Part shown: positions 4,534 to 48,468 of the stretch, piece by piece
Position numbering within the stretch: position 1 is the stretch's first letter
Layout of the letters: every line of letters starts with the position of its first letter
NCBI GenBank assembly: GCA_964058805.1
Contig: CAXKVV010000043.1
Span: 310,001-374,000, forward strand
Reading direction: 5' to 3'
DNA length: 64,000 nucleotides
DNA from: Schoenoplectus triqueter
Taxonomy: Eukaryota > Streptophyta > Magnoliopsida > Poales > Cyperaceae
Translations under genes and position numbers: made by a program
The notes under the pieces: generated by a model
What the model was told of the DNA's origin: nothing
The model's database searches: none
What the model saw: the letters and a program-made list of their open reading frames with translations, nothing else

Positions 4534-5733
4534 ATTATTTAATCATATTTTTAGATTAGTCATCTTTAATATCTTGGGACTTTTAATTTATTGGACCTTA
4601 CTTAATTATTTCTGATCCTAATTAAATTTTAGTTATTTACAAACCATTAGTCGGCCCAATCAGATTTCTAATTATTCTTAAGTCCATATTATTTAGTTTC
4701 GGCCTAATTCTCTTCTCACTATAATTTAATCCAAATTCCTTAATATTTAACTTAGGCCCAATTAGTCACAACCCAACCGGCCACATTACAAAAGCCCAAT
4801 TACAGAAATAATTCTCACAAGGCAACAAGCACAATAAGACAATAAAAATCGAGCAACAGAGGGATAAGGCCACAGACACAAGCAAGCAAGTACCAGATTA
4901 CACAACTAAGGCAACAATGGGGCACAGATCAAACCAGTGCCAACAACAACACAACAACCCAACAAGCCATCACAATACAAACAATATGGGAGAAGGCTGG
5001 TACCAGCACGTGCGATACCAGCAGTAGCACAAGGGCAACCGACCATCCTAATGCACAGGGACAGAGCAACAGGGTCAGACAAGCACATAAAACAACCTCA
5101 TATATTGGCAAAACAACCATAGGTCTGACTGGTACCAGTCGTCCAGTACCAGCAGCACAAATAAACTAGCAAAGCAAGCAAACCAGCAACACGAACCGAG
5201 CTAGAATTTTTTTACCAGCAAAGAAACCAAGACAGACACAAGCACAAAGCAAATCAAGCAAACTAGTAACATATAAACCATTAACAGATAAACTAGCACA
5301 GACAACACAAAGCAAATCAAACAAGCAACCGAGCTAGCAAAACCCATTCACAGCACATTCATACAAGCAACAAGCATCTCACAAGAGGGAAAAATAAACT
5401 AGGGTTTACCAGTTTAGAGAGAAATCAGGTCAGCGAGCAAGAAAATCAAGGCTAGCATGAGCAAAGCGTAGGCCTCCTCTCTTGATTTTGGCCACCACCT
5501 CTTTCCTCCCCTTTGAATCTCTTTTTGTTCTTATCCGTTTTTATCGGTTCAATTTTTAGATTTTTAAATTTCAGCACATGAGAGCAGCAAATGGGGAGAG
5601 AAGAGGAGCACACACAAACTTTATAGAGGTGACAAAGGCAGTATGTGAGGGAGAAAGGTGTGCAATGGTCATGGGATATGACCGATTAGGGTTGACGGGA
5701 GAGAGGGGTTGTCAGGGGGGGAAGGGTCAAGTG
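4534..5733. other. Strand-asymmetric CA-rich block, no gene recognised
   Basis: From about 4780 to 5420 the plus strand is dominated by C and A and is full of short recurring words (ACCAGC, AAGCAA, CAACAC). The short frames it opens on both strands are low-complexity and have no domain. From 5460 to 5570 the strand turns pyrimidine-rich, and 5578-5730 is purine-rich. It may be the leader or LTR of a decayed retroelement read on the minus strand, but no terminal repeats or TSD were found. Confidence 0.4.
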
Positions 5734-6880
5734 GTAGTCAGTAGTGTATTAAAATCGGGACGGGTCGGGATGGGTTATGGCGGGTCGGCGGGTTTTGGCA
5801 GGACGGGTCGGGACGGGTTAACGGGTTTTCACGGGATAAGTTAGGACAGGTCCATTTTGGGGGGTTTGGCCGCGATCCGTCCTATACCAGTTGGGTCGGA
5901 TGGATCAGCGGGTCGGGACGGGTCGAGTCCAAGGGCGGGGCGGGTCGGGTCGGCGGGTCTAATTTTTTTTTCTAAAATTTCAAAAATTTCAAAAATTCTA
6001 AAAATTTCGAAAAATTAAAAAATAATTATTAAAAATATTTAAAATATATAACAACTTATATTCTTGACCAAAAAAATATTTTATTTTTTTATCATTTTTG
6101 TTCAAAGTTAAAAAAATAATCAAAAAATTCAAATAAATTCTAAAAAAATGTAAAAATCTGAAAATATTTATTTAAAAATTAAATATAATCTTAAATGATA
6201 TGACTTAAAATAAATTTAAATACAAATTTTAAATGAAATAATTTAAGTAAAAAATTAAATAAAATCTTAAAGAATTGGAATAAAATGATAGAATTTTAAA
6301 AAAAGTGAGGAAAAAAAATTTAAATATCATAAAAATTAAAATAAATGAGTTAAAAATAAAGTTACCCTCCTCTTTTATTCCGCGTTTAGCACCGGCTATG
6401 TAATACATAGGCGAAGTTCTAACTTTTTTTTTTGGTTAGTAAAGTTTATTAAAAAAAATCAAATAAGGATTGTAAATGCTAGAAAAATAATAAAAATGGG
6501 AAAAAATAAAGAATATAAGTGTTTAAAAATATCATCTAAAAATTCAAGTTCATATACCATAGATTATTTTCTGGCATACCATCTGAGTCTCCATCCGCTT
6601 CTGTCATAAATTCACCGGATGATTATTCTACGGGTGCATGTTGATTACGTTGTTCTACATCAAACCAATCTTTCAAGCATACGAGTCGTTCGAATGTCTT
6701 TGCACCCAATCTGCTACGTTTATCTGTTAGTATCCTATTTGCTGAACTAAAACAGGATTCAGAAGGGACAGTTGACACGGACACGACAAATATATCATGT
6801 GCCATCATGGCGAGAGTTGGGTATGCAACTTCATGGCGACAGTTGACCCGGTCGAGTTTTTTTAAAACTCTAGTAGTCAG
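5734..6880 (-). mobile_element. Deleted hAT transposon with perfect 8-bp TSD
   Basis: The element proper is 5742-6872 (1131 bp). It starts TAGTGTATTAAAA and ends TTTTAAAACTCTA, an imperfect terminal inverted repeat of hAT type. Both sides carry the same 8 bp, GTAGTCAG (5734-5741 and 6873-6880), the hAT TSD length. The left subterminal region is packed with GGGTCGGG/GGGACGGG repeats, as in the larger relative at 45513-48460. Only the C-terminal end of a transposase remains, on the minus strand, so it is an internal-deletion derivative that would need a transposase supplied in trans. Confidence 0.9.
6623..6808 (-). pseudogene. hAT transposase C-terminal dimerisation fragment
   Basis: The minus strand encodes about 60 residues with the hATC signature: SESCFSSANRILTD followed by RSRLGAKTFERLVCLKDW. 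This is the RICESLEEPER/DAYSLEEPER-like dimerisation region. Everything upstream (BED finger, RNase-H-like catalytic core) is missing, replaced within tens of bases by the right end of the element. It cannot be functional. The same region in the larger copy at 46168-46722 is very similar. Confidence 0.9.
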
Positions 6881-8330: not shown

Positions 8331-9661
8331 TTTGTTGGCATAGTTGTTTGTCATGATTTATTCAACTGACATGAATTTTGAGTGGTTGAATTTCTCAATA
8401 AAATATATCATTTAGTTATATTAAAGTTAGGAACATATAATTATTTTTAGAAATAAAATTGTCTTGCACAATTATTTTCAAAAATAAAAAAGTCCTGCAC
8501 AATGGACGGGTTCGCTACTAGTTTGTATCAAAGTATATGTATGTTATAGCTAGGCATGTATAGGCATTTAAATTTGTTTGTTAGTAAGAAAATTTGTGAG
8601 CTACTCGATGAACTTTATAAGTTCGATAACTTTGTTAGATACACTTCGCATTTGCAATGGCAAATATAATAGCATGGAACAAGGTACGCCAAATATGTTA
8701 TCAGAACTGGGCCAACTGGCAACGCATGCAGCAATTAACGCCATGCGTACCGTACAGAAACCACCACCTTATCAACAAATTTGTACGTTCACTGAACCTG
8801 GACGGGTGTGGATATTCTCATTCTGCTTGTGTTGTGTGTTAATAACTTATATGATGACACATGCTTCAATGAACTTGGACGTTATTTTTCCCCATTTGAG
8901 CTTTAATGTATTTGGACGCTTTAACGATATTTCTGTATAAAATTTATTTTGAAACTTAACTTTTTCTTTCAAAACATTAATTTTCTTTATTCTTTATTTT
9001 TATAAGGCTAATTCTGCGATGAATAGAAAGAAATACCGTAAATTTATTAATTGATGGCAATGATTTTTACTCATCAACCTCTCTTCTTTAATCACACTCA
9101 ATTTTTTTTTATCTTAACCATCAAATACTAAAAAATTATACCGATTCATAGCAGAACTCCCTTTTTATAATCAGATTTAAGAAAAAATATAATATTTCTA
9201 AAAAAGGAGGGTTCACTTGGACAGTGGTTATTTTGATAATTTTAACATTTTTTTCTTAAATAAACTGCATAAAAAAATAAAAGGGCATTTCTAAATGGGA
9301 GTTGATATACATAAGCATTCATTGATATTGTCATCAATGCAATCTTAATTAAGAATATTATATGAGTTATACATCTTAATGAATTCATTATACTGCTCAT
9401 TTTTTTATCGTACTTTCATTATCCATATTAAGTAAGTTATTATATATTAACGATATCAACTAAGTACTATACAAAATGAATGGTATAATAAAATTATTAA
9501 CATGCATAATAACTTTATATCATTTGCATAATAACCTATAGAGTTTCGATGACTGTATATATCAACAAGGGTAACACTGTAATATATATATTTTTAATTT
9601 ATAGTTTGTTGGGATTAAAATTTCAAGTAATTTAAGTGTTATTCAAAATTATATATATATA
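8331..9661. other. Intergenic, one unexplained 120-codon frame
   Basis: A plus-strand open frame at 8578-8940 (120 codons) has no recognisable domain, and its base composition is slightly less AT-rich than its surroundings. Other frames there also read without obvious homology. The rest is AT-rich with TTAAT-type words. I do not call a gene. Confidence 0.35.
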
Positions 9662-31457: not shown

Positions 31458-32597
31458 CTACTGTCTCTCTATTTGAATCGTGACATGGCTGATATTGAAC
31501 TCCCGTTTAATGTAGCCAATCACCTTATCAAGCACCACATCTTGATTTGCATCCTTAGTAACTGTAACATGACATGCAAGCAACACTTTACCTACTGTAA
31601 TTGCCCATATATGCAACTCGTGCACAGCAACTACACCTTCCAATTTGCATAACCCCTCTTCAAGCTTGGTCGCATCTATCTCTCTTGGGGTGTTTTCCAT
31701 TAACACCTCCAAAATATCCCTTAGCATCTTGATTGTGGTGATTAGCACAATTATTGAGAAAATCAGCGTGCAAACAAGGTCGATAATTTTCCACTTGGGC
31801 TTGTACCAAATGATAGCCCCGCCTACCATGACACCCACGCTTTGTATTGAATCCCCTAGCACATGCAAATAGGCGCTGTGCACATTTATATCCCTCTTCT
31901 TTTTCTCTCTTGTCTTTTTCAGCAATGGCTTGTTCACATCCTTCTGTGAATGGTTATGACCATGATGATGGCTGTGAACCTCATGGTCATGTTCATCCAG
32001 ACTCTCATGGTCATTGTCATGCTTGTGACCATGATCATGGCCGTGACTATAGCTGTGTCCATGATCATGACCTAATAAAAATGCCATGATAATATTGACA
32101 ATTAAACCAAAAGCAGAAACAGCAAACATGAGCATACCTTTAACCTCTCCACTTTCATAAAGAAACCTTTTCACCGCCTTGTAAATTAAAATACCAGTTA
32201 AAAGCCATATGATCTGGATAGAAACCAATGCACCAAGAATTTCTATCCTGAAAAAACCATAGGACTGGCGCGGGGTGGCCTCCCAGCCAGAGGCCCAGAG
32301 AGAGAACAAGGAGATAGCGAAGGCAGCCACATCAGTCAATAAGTGGGCAGCATCTGTCAGAATAGCCAGACTGTTGGCCTGTATTCCACCAACCACCTCA
32401 ACAGCCATAAAGAGTATGCATAGGATTATTGCCAGTGCTAGTTTTCTCATAGAGGTGTCTCTCTCCGGAGCAGCCAAGGTGGAATTAGAGAGGTCGCATG
32501 TCGCGCCGGCACATATTTTGGTGTTTTCAGGCATGTTGGAATTTTCTGCAACAGTGATGTCTATGGTATGAGATTGCTGGGACTTCTGTCCTTCCAT
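31458..32597 (-). CDS. MTP1: Vacuolar zinc transporter, cation diffusion facilitator (MTP1 type)
   Basis: Single-exon CDS of 379 aa that moves Zn2+ into the vacuole in exchange for protons, giving zinc storage and tolerance. The ATG at 32597 (MEGQK) is chosen; the two codons before it are TTG and CTG. Six membrane segments fit about residues 52-70, 76-101, 118-140, 153-176, 246-264 and 272-291. Zinc-site motifs are intact: TDAAHLLTD (81-89) in segment 2 and HVLGDS (245-250) in segment 5. Between segments 4 and 5 is the long His-rich cytosolic loop (about 177-216) that marks plant MTP1/MTP3. The N-terminal Cys pair (ICAGATC, residues 28-34) is present. The C-terminal domain ends HVTIQIERQ, matching MTP1 closely. 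Intronless structure is normal for this group. The His loop is shorter than in Arabidopsis MTP1. Confidence 0.96.
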
Positions 32598-33511
32598 CAG
32601 CAAAGATCACTGAAATAAGTGAACATTTGCAAGCATATAAACTTCACTTTGGTTTTGATCAGAGCAGAGCATTAATTAAGGAAGCCAGCGTGAGAGCCTG
32701 AAATTTGCCTTTAAATGTCAATGAAATTCAGAAAATTAAAAGGCGTATGGCCTGAGACATCCAAGAAATGTCGAAAATTGAGATATTGCAGGAGAGAAAT
32801 AATTGTGCTTGGCGGGGCTTCCTTTTGACGGACTGAATTGGGGCAAAATTAGGAGACCAAAGGGGAACTCTAGATAATGATGAAAGCGAAGTTGTATGAA
32901 GCAAATCAGACAAAACCAGGTGAAATTTGAAAGTACCTATGGCTATGGCTACGTATGATCGGGAATCCAGGATATACAAATACAATCCAGAGGCACCGCG
33001 ATTTGAGATCAAGCCATTATTATTATTATTATTATCTTTAAAATAGTGGGAAATTTATATATTTATATTTTATCCTTAAACCTGAATAGAATAAGTAATT
33101 TGAATTTGAGGAAAGAAAATAGCAAATACTTAAACGGCTGCGCTCCGAGTCTGACAGGGACGTGCTTATTAAAATTTGCACATAGTGTTCGTTTGGAATT
33201 TAAGAAATAGTTTCCAAAGGTGATACTTTTGGAAAAGGATACAATAGTTTTATTTTGAAATAATTATATTTTTAACTATTTAGAAGAACGAAAATCATTT
33301 GATAGTAAAATAGTTAAAATATAAATAATTATGATACTAACAATGATGATGATAATATTAATAGTAGTAATAATAATAAAATAATCATAATCATAATATA
33401 ATAATATAGTACAATATAATCAAATAATAATAAAATAATCATAATAATAAATAATAATAATAATAATCATAGTCATAGTCATAATTATTGGGAGTAGTAA
33501 ACTTCAAGTTC
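32598..33511. other. Upstream region of MTP1
   Basis: The MTP1 5' side (32598-33010) is of mixed composition. 33013-33036 is an ATT microsatellite. 33320-33480 is dense in ATA/ATAATC repeats. A GTTCGTTTGGAATTTAAG word near 33188 looks like the end of a hAT-type element, but no partner end was found. Confidence 0.4.
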
Positions 33512-34786: not shown

Positions 34787-35247
34787 AGTCAAATATGGGT
34801 CACATTTCTGTTTACCTTCCATTTTTATTTATAAGCTGGCATGCTGTTGCTCCAAGTGTTTTACAAGTCTGGGACTTTTGCACGACGTTTCCTTGTTGGT
34901 TAATTGCCACCTTTGGGATGCATTTCATACCTGGATTGAGGAGCAAGAGCATTTCATTGAAGAACGATGTCTGGGTGGCCCAACCACATGGTATGTATAG
35001 GTTGTTATGGCTTGTCAAACCTCAAGTGCTTATTTATGTTTGCTTCATGTTTGAAGCATATGGGCTTTTATACCTCTTCCCCACATGATGCTAAAACGGG
35101 CCAGAATTAATGCTTGAATGGCCCAAACTTTGACCCGATCCGACCCGGAATGGAACTTATCCTCCACCATCTCATTCTTCCCTCTGACTCTCTCCTCCTC
35201 CTCTTCTCTTCTCGAGGAAGCACTGCCCAGAACACAAGCACACAGCC

Positions 35248-37156
35248 ATGGCAGCTTCAGCTCGAATCTCCCACTTCGACCCCTTCATCTCCCCTCCTCT
35301 CGCCTCTCGGAAACCCCACCTCTCTATCTCTATCTCTCGCTTCTCGCCTTCTCTCAGCTCCCTCTCTCTCTCTCTTCCTTCTCTCTCTCTCCCCCCATCC
35401 AGCACCTCAATTAAACCCAACTACCGACATCGCGTACACGCTTTCATTAGAAATATATCAGAATCGGAATCTGTACCCATCGCCAAGGAGCCCGAGGAGC
35501 TGGATGCGAGCATTCCTACTGGACCTGGGGTTTATGGTGTTTACGACGCTAATGGAGAGCTCCAGTTCATTGGCATCTCTCGCAATATCTACTCCAGTGT
35601 AGACAAGCACAGGAAGTCTGTTCCCGAGCTCTGCTCCTCTGTTAAGGTCATCATCTTTTCTATTGCATATTGCGAATTGCATTCTGCCTTCCTAGTTTTG
35701 ATGAGCATTAAAGACATCGGATGCTATGTTTAATGCTATTTCTTGGATCATGTGCGTACCTCTATGGTTTTCTATACTCTATGAAATAGATTCATAATTT
35801 TAGGAGTTTTGGGAAGAAAAACAAATAATTTGCTTTCCTTTTTTAATTTAGCTAATATATATCAAGTTGCTCTTTGGGTCCCAAAAGTTTCAAGCTTCTG
35901 TTTTGATCTTCAATGGATTTAATCTGTGCCACTTCGGGGGATGTTTTATTTATCTAATTTGGTGAAATTTCTCGAAATTGCATTGGCCCAATGATAGTTA
36001 CTTCCTAACGTCGCCAGCTAAATTCAGAAAAGCACAGTTTCTTTCAGTTTTTTCCTCCAAATTATGAAGGTTCCTTAAAATTAAAATCTTTTGCAATTTC
36101 TCACCATGGATTAGAATTGTTCCATCAGAATCTCACTGCAGACCTAATGATTTGTTAGCTTTATGTTACTAAGGCGGTGAAGTCAGTCATTGACAAGTGT
36201 TCCATGAGAGAGAGAGAGACCATGGAAAGTTCCACTAGTCAGCCAAGGATATATTTTTCTGAAGAATAAACTAAAGAAATCTCAGCCCTTGGGCAGATTT
36301 GAGGGTGAAGATAAAAACTATGGCACACTACTCCAACTACGGCAGGAGCTCTGGACTTGCTCCTACTTTAGTCCATGCTGTCATTTTTAGTAAAAGAAAA
36401 TGATTTAATGTTTGAATTAAAAACATTTGTACCGACCTGCATTTTTGGAAGAGCATAAAGCAGCAACAACAATAGCAGCTTAGCAGCTAAGGTTATGACG
36501 GCTAAATACAGTTAGACTCTATTGGGACCAAATTGGTAGTTAGTATATATCTGAATAATTTAAGTTGAAGCTTGACTGCTCTGTGGGTGTCCATGTTGCT
36601 ACATATTTTCTGAATACATGCTATTTTTCTAATGCATGATTAAAAATGGGACATGCAGGTAGGACCTGCGGACACTGCCACACCAGATCGAACGGTCCTG
36701 CAATCCGCATGGAAATCCTGGATTGAAGAGCACATAACAGTGACCGGAAACCCCCCTCCGGGCAACGTACAGGGCAACTACACCTGGATTGGCGCACCAC
36801 CAGACCTCCGTTTGACTCCAGGCCGCCATGTCAGCCTGAATGTCCCATTAGAAAAACTAATTGACCGGCTTGTTAAAGATCACAAAGTGGTGGCTTTCAT
36901 CAAGGGATCAAGGCGGGCACCACAGTGTGGCTTCTCTCAAAAGGTTGTCGGCATCTTGGAGTCACATGGGGTCGACTTTGTGTCAGTAGATGTACTGGAT
37001 GAAGAACATAATTATGGACTGAGAGAGAAATTGAAGAGTTACAGCAATTGGCCAACCTTCCCACAAGTGTTTGTAGGAGGTGAGTTGGTTGGGGGGTGTG
37101 ATATCCTTTCTGATTTGGCTCAGAAAGGAGAGCTTAAGGCAGTTTTTCAGAAATAA
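35248..37156 (+). CDS. GRXS16: Plastid CGFS monothiol glutaredoxin with GIY-YIG-like domain
   Basis: Two exons, 35248-35646 and 36659-37156, joined in phase 0, giving 298 aa (Arabidopsis GRXS16 is 293 aa). Such glutaredoxins handle Fe-S clusters and redox control in the stroma. Residues 1-66 are Ser/Leu/Pro-rich with no acidic residue besides Asp11, as in a transit peptide. Residues 93-112 carry the GIY-YIG-like signature (GVYGVYD, then QFIGIS), a domain fused to glutaredoxin only in this plant subfamily. The C-terminal domain has APQCGFSQ with the active Cys at 223, then [19 protein letters not shown], which forms the glutathione and cluster-binding side. The ATG at 35248 is the first in frame after the promoter and begins MAASA, a common plastid start. 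A pure C18 tract lies 66 bp after the stop. Confidence 0.96.
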
Positions 37157-39138: not shown

Positions 39139-39535
39139 AGTGCGACTATGGTGCTTTGTAAAGCACAGAGACGTTATGTATTTTATGTTTTATTATTAAT
39201 TTCAAGTCAGAAATAATTGATCTGAATCGTTCAATTTAATTTTCATATCAAAATCTACTAGTAAACCAAATTTTATATTTTATAAAATTTTTTTGCTATT
39301 TTTTCTGATGAGGAGAAAATAACTTGATCTGAGAATGTTGGTTCATCCAAAAATGACGGTTTTTCTCCTATCAAAAAAATAGCAAATAAATTCCAAAAAA
39401 TATAAAATTTGGTTTACTAATAAATTTTGATATGGAGATTAGATTGAGCGGTTTGGATCGATCATTTCTGACTTAAAATTAATAATAGAACGTAAAGCAC
39501 ACAACGCTCTTGTGCTTTGTAAAGCACCATATCCT
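39139..39535. mobile_element. Foldback MITE, type IV copy 2
   Basis: The left end GACTATGGTGCTTTGTAAAG and right end GCTTTGTAAAGCACCATA are inverted copies. The interior is collinear with 11361-11770 but partly in the opposite orientation, as expected for a foldback. It stands inside a TA microsatellite: TATATATATA to the left, a 71-bp TA run to the right. Confidence 0.85.
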
Positions 39536-39540
39536 AATTT

Positions 39541-41403
<1,863 letters not shown>

Positions 41404-44400
41404 TCAGTTTATAATAATCTTACAAGGCAACAATGGCGAACCAGCCAAGCTTTCTCCTTCCCTTAAAGGTTCCTTTTCACAAGCTACCAGCCTAAAAACA
41501 CCCGACCCCAAAAGCCGAGTACATCTTTGCTTCAACTCTCCGAAACTAGCTCTTAAAACCGTCTCCACCCACTTGTGTATTGTTCTTCTCTCTTCTACAG
41601 CCAGAATTTGCTCCATAACATCCATTTCAATCTCCAACTGGCAACTCCATGGACCAAACTTTTCACAAAATATCCCATTCACATTCCATAACACCTCGTC
41701 AGCCAGGGCATTATAGTTAAAGGCACTAAATTCAACCTTTTGGTCTAGTTTCTCAAATAGTTCCTCAACCCAAGTATCGAAATCATCTTCTGATGCAGAA
41801 TCGTTCTCTGGTTCATCTTTTGATTCCTCAATAGACAGGTTCAAGTCAAGCCCCAGGTGAGGCCTTTTCGGGGATCCGTAACATGTACCGCTCTTGCGTT
41901 TAGCTGAGTCACATCTCCGAGTTAACACAACCCTTCCACTTGAGGAATTCCCAATCAATGCATTAGCTGAGTCCATTACAATCTTCATTTTTCGGCTTTG
42001 TGCTGAAAGAATATTCGCCTCGGCAAAATTGGAATATTTTTTGGAAGGAGACAGTATGGTTTTTCTTCCAGCAGATAAAAGGAATATTCTACCACCTATA
42101 CCTATCTCTCTATTGGATGAATCCAGAAGCTTACCATTGTTTACTGCATTGTTCAAACTCTTTTGCTCCAAGAAATCAGCCTTATCTACATTTTCAATAT
42201 AAACAACAGCAGAGGGCTTTCTCGCAATTTCACTTGCTATGTAATCAATGCTTGTCATCCCATGATGTCTCGCATTGAAGCACATGCTCAGATCGCTCTT
42301 GCTCAAGTCGACAGAAACCAAGTTATCTATTCTGCCAGATACCATTTCTGCAAGTGCAGCTGCAACTCTCTTTTGTGCAACTTGATCACCACCTTGAAAC
42401 CCTAGCCAGATACCCCGTCGACTCAGACCTGGGACAATGCTAGGATTAACCCTAGAGCTAATCACAGAACTAATATGTTTCAGTGCCTCCTCCTGACGAC
42501 CAACCCGTTTGTACAGATCGGCCAAAAATGACTTGTAACTATTTACATCAGGAATACACAAATCCCGACTTGTGGTAACTGGATTCGCATTGAGGTTAAG
42601 CTGGGAAGGCGACCTGGCTTTTGGGCTCTCGGTTTTATTGGGTGGAGGTCCCTGAGGAGTTGCCAGGGCCAGATCAGTTGTGACGGAAGTCGCTGATGAA
42701 GGAGATGCATGACCTTCAGATCCATCCAAGTGGAGTTGCTCGCTTTTGGAGTTCCTTGGTTGGAGCTTTGAGATCAAATCTTCATCTCCAAGATTGGTGC
42801 TTGAAGGAAGTGAGATGCTCTGAATGGGACGATTTGGTTTAGGCAGGGTGACCATAGCAGGGCTTTGGGTTACAGGTGCAATGCCAGGGATCAAGGAATA
42901 GTTATTCTCTGATGCAACTATTCTTGGGGAATAACTAGTGTGGAGGCGGTGGCAGTAGTCGTTCCATTTCTTTTGCAGGTTTGCAATTTTGCCATTCAAC
43001 ACCAACTTATTATCATCTGAGGTCTGCACTACATGAAATAGAAAAACATGATTTTTTACCAAAAGCAAGAATAGTTCAAAAATCTGCATTTTTTTTCATG
43101 CTCCTGAAACTTTTTGAAATTGACGTGTGTAACAGCTCACAAGGAAAACTTGACTGAACTCAGAGCTTTTCCAGCTTAACAGTTAAGGTTTTATCGATAC
43201 TGTCATTCTAGTAAACCAGACCTTCTGGCTTTCTGGCAATAATTAACTGCTGAAATTACCAAACCCTCAACTAAAAGTATAAACCAAAAGGCACTTTACC
43301 TTTGCAGTATCCCCTAATCCATTGGCAACAGCACCTGAGTTAGATTTTGACATCCAAGAAGGCAAATTTGAATGGACTTGGTCAACAGCCTCCATTGAAC
43401 TTGCCTTTAGAATTGCCATGGCCTCATGCTCATAATTATAGTTGCAGCTTTGACACCTTGCACCAGGCTCATACTGGTATGGGCTGTTCACCACTCCCAC
43501 TGGCTCAAATGTTTCAGGAAAGAAACCCTGAAATGGAACAAAACTGTACCAGAAAAAAAAAATAGAAAGCATAAGTTATCCCATATGTAAATTGAAAATT
43601 GAGTAACTAATGTAGATTGAACTTCATTAGTACAATAATAATAATTTAGCATAATATCACTTTCCAACAAACAAAGAAGATATACATACCTAGTCAATTA
43701 ATTTATCATTTATATGTTTTCAACGATTTATATAGATTAAAAGACAGGTAGCAAGACAAACCAGTGTTGACTTTTGCCGTAGCAAGCAGCTACTAAAAGA
43801 AAAAAAAAATAAAGATACACTACTATAAACAAATCAATAACTAAATTAATATATTTGGAATAAAGCAAGAACAAACAAACAAATGGATACTTGGACAAGA
43901 ATTTGTTAAAAGACAGGTAGCAAGACAAACCTATGAGCTTTGTTAAAGCAGCCAGTTGCAGTTCCATTAGTCCTTGCAGGAGTAATGGGCAATATTCGGA
44001 GCTCCCAATCCTTATCCACCAATGGATACTTGGACAAGAATTTCAAGTAGGTCTCATAGTTCTTCGACCATCCCATAACCCAAACCCGGCCCCGCTCCAA
44101 AACCCGTGAGACCTCCGAAACAGCACGACCTGCCTTCTCCCCTTCAAGCAGCTCATTCAAATCCCCAACACTCAAAACCACCCCGGGGCCAGGCACATCA
44201 AGAAACCTGTTAACTGTATCCTCAATCCGATCAGCTACATCCAAATCCACGTCAAAAATTTGAATTCCCTCGAGTTCTGGTGGGAACAAAGACCAGTTAC
44301 GCCGATTAATGGTTCCAGAGAAATCCCTTGCAGCATCAGCAGCACCTCCTCCAACAAGCATGGGGTTATGGCCATTGCCTGAATCCCGGAACAATATTTC

Positions 44401-45084
44401 CCCAATTTTGCGACAGTGTTCATCCCCTGAGCTCGCAACAGACCCAATAAGCTCATCAGACCCATTGGAGAAGCTACAGAGAAACAGAGGAGGGCACCTG
44501 CGCGGAAACCTAAGGATGGGCGGTGGAGTAGGTCGCAAAACAGCGAGCTTTATATCAGAGCTTCTAAACCCAGCTTCTGCAAAAACCCTGCTGACAACGG
44601 GGTCATCCAGAATAGCCAGAATCAATTGCTGCAACTCGACTTTCACTCCAGGGAAGGAGGAGGAGGAGGTAGCACAAGTCTGGCTGTGGTGCTGATAGAG
44701 ATGGAAGGTATCAGGATTTCGCCTCTGGTTGGCCTGAGAACGCTTGATGGCGGCCATGAGGGAGTTGGAGACGGGAGGTTCGTCGAGTGGTGGTGCAGGT
44801 GAAGAGGAAGAGGAAGAGGAAGGAGAGGAGCAGGAGGGGAGGCGATCCAAGGCGACGCTGAAGCATAGTTCGAGAGCTTTGAACTGGAGGCGGGGGGAGT
44901 AGGCGGCGCTTCGGGAGCGGGAGAGAGCATCGCGGAGGAGGGGAGAGGAGAGGAGACTGGAGATGAAATGGAGAGAGGTGGTCTGGGCGTGGGAGCGGCG
45001 GCGAGCGGTGGATAGGGCGGCGTCGAGAGCGGTGGAGGCCTCGGGCGTGAGACAGGCGCGCGCTGCGGTCACCGGAGTAGGCAT
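41404..45084 (-). CDS. SMXL6/7/8 (D53-like) strigolactone-pathway repressor
   Basis: Clp-ATPase-like nuclear repressor. In its clade, strigolactone-bound D14 and the F-box protein MAX2 trigger its destruction, releasing genes that control branching. Exons in gene order: 45084-43931, 43543-43300, 43023-41404, giving 1005 aa (Arabidopsis SMXL7 is 1002). Residues 1-180 are the double Clp-N domain, starting MPTPVTAARACLTPEA with RRRSHAQTTSLH and PPVSNSLMAAIKRSQANQRR, very close to SMXL6/7. Then come CPPLFLCSF, the first ATPase-like region to about 375, SFVPFQGFF at the exon 1/2 join, the middle region, and the second ATPase-like region. The EAR motif LDLNL (858-862; 41836-41850) recruits TOPLESS. 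Oddities: HGMT (720-723) where RGKT is expected, and no usable P-loop upstream (GGDQVAQK in place of a G-x4-GK pattern). The clade call rests on the N-terminus and middle region. Confidence 0.95.
43738..44046. repeat. Split direct duplication across the SMXL exon 1/intron 1 border
   Basis: Two words occur in the same order twice: TAAAAGACAGGTAGCAAGAC (about 43739 and 43910) and AATGGATACTTGGACAAGAA (about 43883 and 44022). On the gene strand the first contains the intron 1 donor, GTTTGTCTTGC, and the second is exon 1 coding sequence. The middle parts have diverged in the intronic copy. Intron 1 therefore carries a second copy of its own donor. Confidence 0.75.
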
Positions 45085-45504: not shown

Positions 45505-48468
45505 CTATGCTCTAGTGTTTTAAAATCGGGTCAGGTAGGGACGGGTTAGAACATGTTCATTTTGGGAGTTAGGTCGTGACCCGTCCTAGACTCATCGGGT
45601 CGGACGAGTCGGGTCCAAGGGTGAGGTGAGTCGGGTCGGGTGGGACGGTTCGGCGGGTCAATTTTTTTTTTAATTTCAAAAAATTTAAAAATTAACAAAT
45701 AAATTCTTAAAATTTCTAAAATTTCTCAAAAATTTTGAAAAATTAAAAAATAATTATTTAAAATATATAACAACTTATATTCTTGACGAAAAAAATTATT
45801 TTATTTTTTTGTCATTTTTGTTCAAAGTTCAAAAATAATAAAAAAATTCAAATAAAATCTAAAAAATTATAAAAATCCGAAAATATTTATTTAAAAATCA
45901 AATATAATCTTCAATGATATGACTTAAAATAAATTGAAATAAAATTTTAAATAAAATAATTTAAGTAAAAAAATAAATAAAATCTTAAAGAATTATAAAA
46001 TGATAGAATTTTAAAAAAGTGAGGAAAAAATTTAAATATCATAAAAATTAAAATAAATGGGTTAAAAATAAATTTACCCTCCTCCTTTATTTCGGGTTTG
46101 GGACCGGCTATGTAATACCTAGGCGAAGTTCTAACTTTTTTTTATTAGTAAAGTTTATTGAAAAAAATCAAATAAGCATTGTAAATGCTAGAAAAATAAT
46201 AAAAATGGGAAAAAAATAAAGAATATAAGTGTTTAAAAATACCATCTCAAAATTCGAGTTCATATACCATAGATTATTTTTTGGCATACCATATGAGTCT
46301 CCATCCGCTTCTGTCATAAATTCACCGGATGATTGTTCTATGGGTGCATGTTGATTATGTTGTTCTGCATCAAACCAATCTTTCAAGCATACAAGTCGTT
46401 CGAATGTCTTTGCACCCAATCTGCTGTATTTATCTGTTAGTATCATGTTTGCTGAACTAAAACAGGATTCGAAAGGGACGGTTGACACGGGCACGAAAAA
46501 TATATCACGTGCTATCATGGCAAGAGTTGGATATGCAGTTTCATTCCTCTTCCAATAACCGAGGATGTCAATATCGTCGGGTTTCATATTTCCTAAGCAA
46601 TAACTAACTAATTCATTCATATTTATTTGCATTTGTGAATCGTCATCTTCCTCCAAGTCTCGCAATAATGTAGACCGACTATTGCTCCTGACATATTTCA
46701 AAAAATAAAAAAATAGTCTCACGATATTATAATAATATAACGACTTCGAATATTGTAAATATGTTAGATTTTAGTACCTAATATTATGAGGATTTGAAGA
46801 AAATGGTTGATCGTTTAGTTTGCATGAAGTTGGATGTTGTATAGATTGAACATGTCTTCCAATGCGGATGTCACACATTGTTCCTCCCCGATATGTGATA
46901 AATTTAGATTATTCTTATATCGTTCAAGCAATCTTATATTATACTTCTTCTTGAATGAAGGATGAAGATAATTGACAATAATTGTAATGAGAGGAACTTC
47001 GTCCTAATATTTTAGGAATTTTTTTCTCATGATTTCTATAATCGGTGACAGAGGCGAGTCACCGTGCACATCCTCCGCGATTCGATGAAGATCTATATTC
47101 TCAAAATCATGGTACAACTTGAAAAATAAAATAAATTAGTAATGAAATAATTTAAAATTTATAATGAAATAAATACAAGACGAAAAAAACAAACCTTGGA
47201 TATCAAATAGAGATGTTGAGGCAATTGATGCGCGGATGGTATGTACGAGCATGATAGTTGGACGGTTGCGTTGAAGAAAACTTCTAAAAATGTGTGAAGT
47301 TGTTCAAGGTGGTTCCATTCTTCCGTGGAGCATAATAAGGGTAATCTCGGGTGAGTTACGTAGGATCTCACTTATAGCATGTTTTATGGAAGAACACGGT
47401 GTAGCATTCTATATGTTGAATTATAACGTGTATATATGTCCCATAGTACTCTTAATTTGCTCAAATTTAATCGTCTACACAAGACATGAAAATCTTATTT
47501 TCTTATATTGTTAGAATAAATATGATGAAGACCATCTTTAAATTTATAAATTAAATTATTGACGGAAGTTGTCTTCAAACCCGCCTTACACAGTTAAACT
47601 AAGAATATGACATGCACATTTTTGGTGAAACATTCAACCATCCATAATTGGGTTTAGTGCACGTGTAAAATAATCAATAGATTTAATATTGTTGCTTGAA
47701 TTATCAAAAGAAATTGAAAATATTTTGTTCTCTAAATCTCTTTTCAAATTATACTCATGCAATACATTTATAATGGATTGATAAATAATTTGTGCGGTAT
47801 GCGAATAACTCAAATTTCTTTTATTGCTATATTCTTGTGAGAATTGAATTGATTTAAATTGTATTCTGCTGTCATTACACTTGAACATTAAGCCTCAAAT
47901 TAATTTATACATTTCTACCTTAGGTTCTTTACATTCTTGCACTATTTTGACATTTCAATACCACCATCCTAGAGCTTTCAAAAGTCTATCACTAACGATT
48001 AACGAATTAACGAGGGAGAGTTTGGTTTGGCGAATTGAGAAGAGAGAGAGTGAAGTTGTTTGTGTGAGGATATGAGATGAAATGGTGTGGTATTTATGGG
48101 GAAAAATTTTGAATTATGATTATTTATTTTTTTATTTTTTTATTTTTTTCGATTTTTTTTATTTTTTTGAATTACAGCGGGTTTGGGACGGGTTAGATTC
48201 TCGAGTTTCCCGGGTCGGGTCGGGCATGGGTTATGACGGGTCGGGTCAGGTCTAAAACGGGTCAGGTGTAGCACGGGTTTTTCTCAATTTTTTTTGCCCG
48301 CGCTCGTGCTAGACCCGCCGGTTCTAACGGATCACGGATCTGACGGATTTGAGCATGAATCGAGTCGGGACGGATCGCGACCACGGATCTGATCGGAACA
48401 GATCGGACGGATCGTGGCCACAGATCGGGCCTGACCTGTTGGTTTTTTTTTAAAACACTACTCTGCCC
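45505..48468 (-). mobile_element. 2.95-kb hAT transposon with ruined transposase
   Basis: The element is 45513-48460. It starts TAGTGTTTTAAAA and ends TTTTAAAACACTA, a perfect 13-bp inverted repeat. The flanking 8-mers CTATGCTC and CTCTGCCC match at six positions, so the TSD has aged. Both ends carry GGGTCGGG/GACGGGTC subterminal repeats. Its first 1.1 kb is closely similar to the deleted element at 5742-6872. The transposase is on the minus strand and broken. Confidence 0.88.
46168..48080 (-). pseudogene. hAT transposase (RICESLEEPER-like), disrupted
   Basis: Fragments in order on the minus strand: 47888-47634 (the SFDNSSNNIKSIDYF region of the RNase-H-like domain), 47371-47159 (STEEWNHLEQLHTFL, DUF4413-like), and 46722-46168 with a KRNETAYPTLAMIARDIF segment and the hATC dimerisation motif (ESCFSSANMILTD, RLGAKTFERLVCLKDWF). 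Stops and frameshifts separate them, and the N-terminal BED finger is not recognisable. These copies usually encode about 600-700 residues. Not functional. Confidence 0.85.

Follow-up and report, generated by a model that had tools for sequence, protein, structure and literature searches.

Two key residues of the RGKT degron are lost in a sedge D53 that may escape strigolactone-triggered degradation

Two key residues of the RGKT degron, the arginine and the lysine, are genuinely lost from D53 in the three sedge proteins sampled. In Schoenoplectus triqueter the motif reads HGMT (42253..42264, minus strand), both R and K being changed, as the original prediction had it and as an alignment of the best 120 of 702 homologues confirms. 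Efforts to alter crop architecture target the D14-MAX2-D53 module, which is regarded as conserved across flowering plants. We think it probable that the sedge D53 escapes D14-MAX2 degradation in its usual form and is still a working repressor; stability of the protein, insensitivity to the hormone and a plant that tolerates or has abandoned this branch of signalling are what the sequence and a predicted fold would lead us to expect. The titles and opening parts of abstracts in the literature searched contained no report of sedge SMXL proteins or of a missing degron in sedge D53.

Gene structure and orthology

The D53 gene lies in the window, by which we mean the whole stretch of 64,000 nucleotides analyzed, located on contig C42 of the S. 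triqueter assembly that was searched (82 Mb, 2086 contigs). It has three exons on the minus strand of 41404-45084 which, once spliced, encode a protein of 1005 amino acids without internal stops; the exon junctions are GT/AG and the frame is open across all three exons. Its features are as follows.

43931..45084, minus strand: exon 1, encoding the double Clp-N (N) domain, D1 and the start of M, and beginning MPTPVTAARACL (open reading frame, splice site, homologue alignment)
43300..43543, minus strand: exon 2, encoding a segment of M (GT/AG junctions, by which both the reading frame and the SFVPF stretch are restored)
41404..43023, minus strand: exon 3, encoding the rest of M, D2a, the EAR motif, D2b and the stop codon (open reading frame, alignment, AlphaFold model of exon 3)
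42373..42375, minus strand: Q683, in place of the lysine of a Walker A-like stretch in D2 (alignment columns)
42253..42264, minus strand: HGMT (residues 720-723), aligned with the RGKT degron (sequence, motif scan, alignment)
41836..41850, minus strand: EAR motif LDLNL, residues 858-862, retained (motif scan and alignment)

The D53-like repressor with a canonical N-terminus and EAR motif that had been proposed for this locus is borne out by the intact 1005-residue frame and by LDLNL at 858-862, a motif in which the D, the second L and the N are invariant in alignment A1. The N domain shares 131 of 168 residues with Typha D53, and the D1-M-D2 layout and conserved N domain are present in the alignment of the best 120 of 702 homologues. 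Elsewhere in the window, 39140-39540 holds two inverted copies around GGTGCTTTGTAAAGCAC, about 360 bp apart and with a (TA)n(TG)n run after them, an arrangement that by eye looks like a MITE. The neighbouring open reading frames include some at 35188-37156 that resemble a GRXS16-like chloroplast glutaredoxin, one of 382 amino acids at 31458-32606 (minus strand) that resembles a cation-diffusion (zinc) transporter bearing a histidine-rich loop, and, upstream of the D53 gene at 46168-46770 (minus strand), a fragment similar to the C-terminus of a hAT-type transposase.

The 702 matches came from 7989 scored candidates. The closest two among the matches listed, P0001 and P0002, are 79% and 78% identical over their full length; P0002 is labelled Rhynchospora tenuis, and P0001, whose label is legible only as 'Rh', was taken as Rhynchospora, itself a sedge genus (Cyperaceae). 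Typha (44% identity) and then other monocots follow within the best 120 of 702, where no further row is labelled as a sedge, some rows being unnamed.

In a 52-row tree, built by a quick method with SH-aLRT support only and with SMXL3/4/5 rows left out, the S. triqueter protein groups with P0001 and P0002 (support 100) as sister to grass D53 (99), and Typha branches outside this pair of groups. The D53 half separates from the SMAX1 half with support of 100, and the sedge sequences are nested in monocot D53. The expected SMXL6/7/8-clade membership is upheld by this tree; the suggestion that the gene is a paralogue is not, since the position of the sedge sequences beside grass D53 makes them orthologues. 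A search of the S. triqueter assembly for a second SMXL6/7/8 gene that keeps RGKT returned only an exon-1 relic of about 150 bp (G000:C826:7763-7919, 74% DNA identity, frame broken), which is either a dead second D53 copy or a fragment; because this assembly is incomplete, a second copy could have been overlooked.

The degron columns

On the minus strand, CATGGGATGACA (42264 to 42253) codes for HGMT, in the sequence context ...MCFNARHHGMTSIDYIASEIARKPS, and a motif scan of all 1005 residues found no RGKT elsewhere in the protein. The feature that identifies a strigolactone-degradable D53-type protein, an RGKT degron in D2a, is replaced here by HGMT. The relatives P0001 and P0002 read HRMT and HRMP, so that H and M are common to all three sedge rows and neither the ancestral R nor the ancestral K is found in any of them (0/3 each). 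A sequencing error is unlikely, as both closest relatives carry the same H and M.

In the other 118 rows of the best 120 of 702, a few of which lack an organism name and were treated as non-sedge, R is present in 118/118, G in 113, K in 113 and T in 84. The motif does tolerate change, given that its last residue varies outside the sedges (RGKM in 13/118) and that five rows depart at G and five at K; the arginine is invariant there. The loop ahead of the motif had been described as a few residues longer, which holds against the 28 rows taken as grasses (13 residues here, 10 in theirs) and fails against the 77 of 118 rows with 24-26 residues. It is 8 residues long in P0001 and P0002, and a short loop was dropped as a sedge-specific trait, grass rows being short as well.

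Expected consequences of the change

In other plants, RGKT is reported to sit at the interface of D2, MAX2 and the receptor, and its deletion to nearly abolish MAX2 binding while leaving receptor binding of the full proteins unaffected; in models from the same 2026 paper, R719 contacts D14 D167 and K721 contacts MAX2 D610, and loss of RGKT is described as making rice d53 insensitive to strigolactone (PMC13233607). The two residues changed in sedges are thus those with predicted contacts to D14 (R) and MAX2 (K) in that report (PMC13233607). Deletion of RGKT is also reported to stabilize D53, SMXL6, SMXL7 and SMAX1 (PMC10858650), and SMXL3/4/5, which do not have the motif, to remain undegraded after rac-GR24 (PMC9133912). 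In SMXL7-delta-RGKT plants, a GR24 response is reported to have remained in one background (PMC12184505).

In the sedge lineage, the face of D2a that meets D14 (in its ligand-activated state) and MAX2 has lost its key R and K (R to H, K to M). With both residues gone, the grip of D14-SCF(MAX2) on the sedge D53 should be too unstable for ubiquitination, and strigolactone should leave the protein intact, as it does the delta-RGKT forms and rice d53. Retention of the N domain and of the EAR co-repressor motif suggests that it probably still represses its targets.

Structural prediction is consistent with a change at the contact surface of an otherwise folded domain. An AlphaFold model of exon 3, computed with a 68-row alignment, has pLDDT >90 for 253 of 539 residues, mostly in D2, and places HGMT at model residues 254-257, directly before a helix at 258-268 (block mean 83). 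The top Foldseek matches of this model are bacterial ClpC. SMAX1 takes fourth and fifth place, from 9kld and 9klv, two structures of the ASK1-MAX2-HTL7-SMAX1 assembly induced by strigolactone (rmsd 2.5, 158-160 columns). D2a is predicted to keep a SMAX1-like fold while the contact residues are lost.

Divergence along the protein

The N domain is strongly conserved and the remainder of the sedge D53 has evolved faster. For each domain, with the borders set in this analysis, we compared identity to P0001; the columns with conservation of 90% or more across 90 rows from neither sedges nor grasses that are changed in all three sedge rows or in >90% of the 28 grass rows; the corresponding 95% columns; and the sedge/grass stem ratio on a fixed 30-row tree, followed by its median and 5-95% interval from 40 column bootstraps.

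N (1-180): identity 0.94; 90% columns, sedges 1/89, grasses 0; 95% columns, sedges 0/66, grasses 0; stem ratio 0.30, median 0.28 (0.06-0.73)
D1 (181-375): identity 0.84; 90% columns, sedges 7/42, grasses 6; 95% columns, sedges 2/27, grasses 2; stem ratio 0.91, median 1.00 (0.60-1.43)
M (376-625): identity 0.78; 90% columns, sedges 3/22, grasses 0; 95% columns, sedges 0/6, grasses 0; stem ratio 1.39, median 1.31 (1.09-1.85)
D2a (626-790): identity 0.69; 90% columns, sedges 8/44, grasses 3; 95% columns, sedges 3/23, grasses 1; stem ratio 2.00, median 2.05 (1.41-3.03)
D2b (791-1005): identity 0.73; 90% columns, sedges 6/35, grasses 5; 95% columns, sedges 1/22, grasses 3; stem ratio 1.64, median 1.53 (1.09-2.57)

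Sedge changes at 90% columns are fewer in N than in D2a (1/89 vs 8/44, Fisher p = 0.0006) and than in everything outside N (1/89 vs 24/143, p = 0.00005). The idea that such changes single out D2a was dropped, as D1, M and D2b have similar rates and N alone is spared. Among the eight D2a changes are R720H, K722M and K683Q, the last in the Walker A-like stretch, where 28/28 grass rows have K and 3/3 sedge rows have Q. The D2a stem ratio is the highest of the five domains, with a bootstrap interval that overlaps those of M and D2b. Unlike the sedge pair, the Typha-palm pair P0003-P0005 has D2a (0.64) better preserved than M (0.55). Controls with matched pairs are mixed: non-sedge pairs matched on M divergence reach the sedge D2a distance in 5/88, 2/88 and 0/16 cases, and pairs matched on D1 in 16/195, 1/184 and 28/57, the last being for P0001-P0002. 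The Pfam AAA_2 domain, matched in Typha and barley D53, is unmatched in the S. triqueter protein and in P0001; in the precomputed list it is also missing from three non-sedge rows of the best 120 (P0037, P0040, P0090).

Faster evolution outside N bears on two alternatives to escape from degradation. A gene that is degenerating toward a non-functional protein might be expected to have sedge stems exceeding grass stems in M, D2a and D2b, as they do, and the decayed partial exon-1 copy on C826 would fit the same picture. We nonetheless consider this very improbable, given the open three-exon frame with GT/AG junctions, an N domain that matches those of P0001 and P0002 at 94% and 91% identity and in which 1/89 conserved columns is changed in all three sedges, the retained EAR motif, and a D2 much of which is predicted with high confidence.

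The main rival holds that the degron has co-evolved with its partners: sedge D14 and/or MAX2 would have changed near D14 D167 and MAX2 D610, preserving both the docking of the altered motif and degradation in response to strigolactone. That H and M recur in every one of the three sedge rows, without scatter, could reflect such a retained, altered interface. Yet the three proteins differ at the second position (G, R, R) and at the fourth (T, T, P), and the sedge-to-grass stem ratio peaks in D2a, a combination that suggests a loosening of constraint more than an interface fixed anew. We regard a co-evolved degron as quite unlikely, although further evidence on both sides comes from the sister repressor and from the rest of the pathway.

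The SMAX1-like sister repressor

S. triqueter also carries a diverged SMAX1-like gene (G000:C79, 4583-8391, minus strand) that retains RGKT, and the two repressors of this species therefore differ, RGKT in one against HGMT in the other. The two closest relatives of this gene's product among the matches listed, P0241 (labelled 'Rh') and P0242 (R. tenuis), have CGRT, for which reason a uniformly kept RGKT in sedge SMAX1-like proteins was dropped; together with HRMT and HRMP in D53, these leave both sampled Rhynchospora repressors without the arginine. That P0241 and P0242 have lost it too is a further point against a co-evolved D53 degron. Across the 121 rows of the SMAX1-like alignment, R is present in 115 and RGRT is common (25). 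The N-terminus of a canonical-looking SMAX1 occupies G000:C947:1-200, where the contig edge ends it before the motif.

The third protein for the C79 gene among the matches listed, with RGKT and 732 bits, is the SMAX1-like protein of the rush Juncus effusus. No Juncus-labelled D53 occurs in the best 120 of 702 homologues (weakest 544 bits), and no Carex-labelled row among the matches listed for D53 or for the SMAX1-like protein. This hints either that rushes are without a comparable D53 or at gaps in annotation.

The rest of the strigolactone pathway in sedges

Within the S. triqueter assembly, MAX2 was not found in a search that had no positive control of its own in a very incomplete assembly, and a single KAI2/D14-family gene was detected (G000:C1118, ~5562-5909 and 9064-9534; two exons, 43% and 35% identical to KAI2). 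From its GHSMAG motif, with the later D and H retained by eye, we take it to be a DLK2-type alpha/beta hydrolase. Completeness controls, for which only the best candidates were scored, recovered a single MCM locus against an expected 8 genes, and 3 chaperonin loci against an expectation of at least 11. At this level of completeness the missing KAI2, D14 and MAX2 carry no weight, and a loss of MAX2 and D14 read from this genome was rejected.

A CCD8-like gene of strigolactone biosynthesis (G000:C1040:592-2892) is 57-79% identical, in five pieces, to Arabidopsis CCD8; one Pfam match there contains six stop codons, read as an intron inside the match. It adjoins a ClpB-like chaperone gene. Three further carotenoid-dioxygenase open reading frames in the assembly are presumably NCED-like. 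Outside S. triqueter, a Carex littledalei MAX2 (KAF3341515.1) is given in a figure legend (PMC12785265). This printed Carex MAX2 and the retained CCD8-like gene lend some support to a co-evolved degron, and with the RGKT-bearing SMAX1-like gene and the DLK2-type hydrolase they indicate that the wider pathway is not obviously gone.

A broader alternative is that the strigolactone branch is decaying in sedges and rushes, with D14 lost or disabled, the degron gone as well and D53 kept for hormone-independent work. We regard this as possible, if on the whole unlikely. No sedge-labelled D14 is found in the best 120 of 2191 rows for rice D14 (weakest 456 bits, ~75% identity; some rows unnamed), even though the database includes Rhynchospora proteins, and in a tree of those 120 rows, with a bootstrap that had not settled, no candidate for a hidden sedge D14 stood out. 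The third-ranked Juncus SMAX1-like protein (732 bits), set beside the missing Juncus D53 in the best 120 of 702, points the same way, as does the report that most mycorrhiza genes are missing from sedges and rushes (PMC12529035). The latter offers a setting for relaxed strigolactone signalling and is no test of it. Against decay of the branch, the absences in the S. triqueter assembly are weightless, and the D14 search covers the best 120 of 2191 family matches, some unnamed, below which a faster-evolving sedge D14 could fall. Loss or decay of D14 would also be compatible with a D53 that escapes degradation, and could be its cause; the likelihoods that we attach to escape, branch decay and a co-evolved degron overlap and are not meant to sum to one.

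Implications and comparison with known systems

More tentatively, sedges, possibly with rushes, may have uncoupled D53 from strigolactone altogether, with the degron gone family-wide, D14 perhaps gone too, and a constitutively stable D53 controlling branching. If so, we know of no earlier case of a plant family in which natural insensitivity to strigolactone arises at the repressor itself. A natural lineage with a degron-less D53 would parallel the rice d53 mutant. In it one could ask if branching can be freed from strigolactone, what then takes the hormone's place, and whether there is any tie to the loss of mycorrhiza genes in sedges.

The S. triqueter protein shares its clade, and the H and M of the motif, with the two Rhynchospora proteins, and differs from them in HGMT against HRMT or HRMP and in a loop of 13 rather than 8 residues. 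With rice D53 and Arabidopsis SMXL6/7/8 it has in common the clade, the double Clp-N domain, the D1-M-D2 layout and the EAR motif; it differs in having HGMT for RGKT, Q for the Walker A-like lysine and an unmatched AAA_2 domain. SMXL3/4/5 (the aSMXL4 and SMXL3/9 clades) likewise lack the motif naturally and are reported to be undegraded after rac-GR24, but they belong to another clade and have other roles, whereas in sedges it is a D53 orthologue, as placed by a tree without SMXL3/4/5, that has lost it. In the rice d53 gain-of-function allele and the SMXL7 delta-RGKT constructs, RGKT residues are likewise lost from an otherwise intact protein; the sedge loss differs from these in being natural, in occurring in three proteins, and in having come about by substitution, not deletion.
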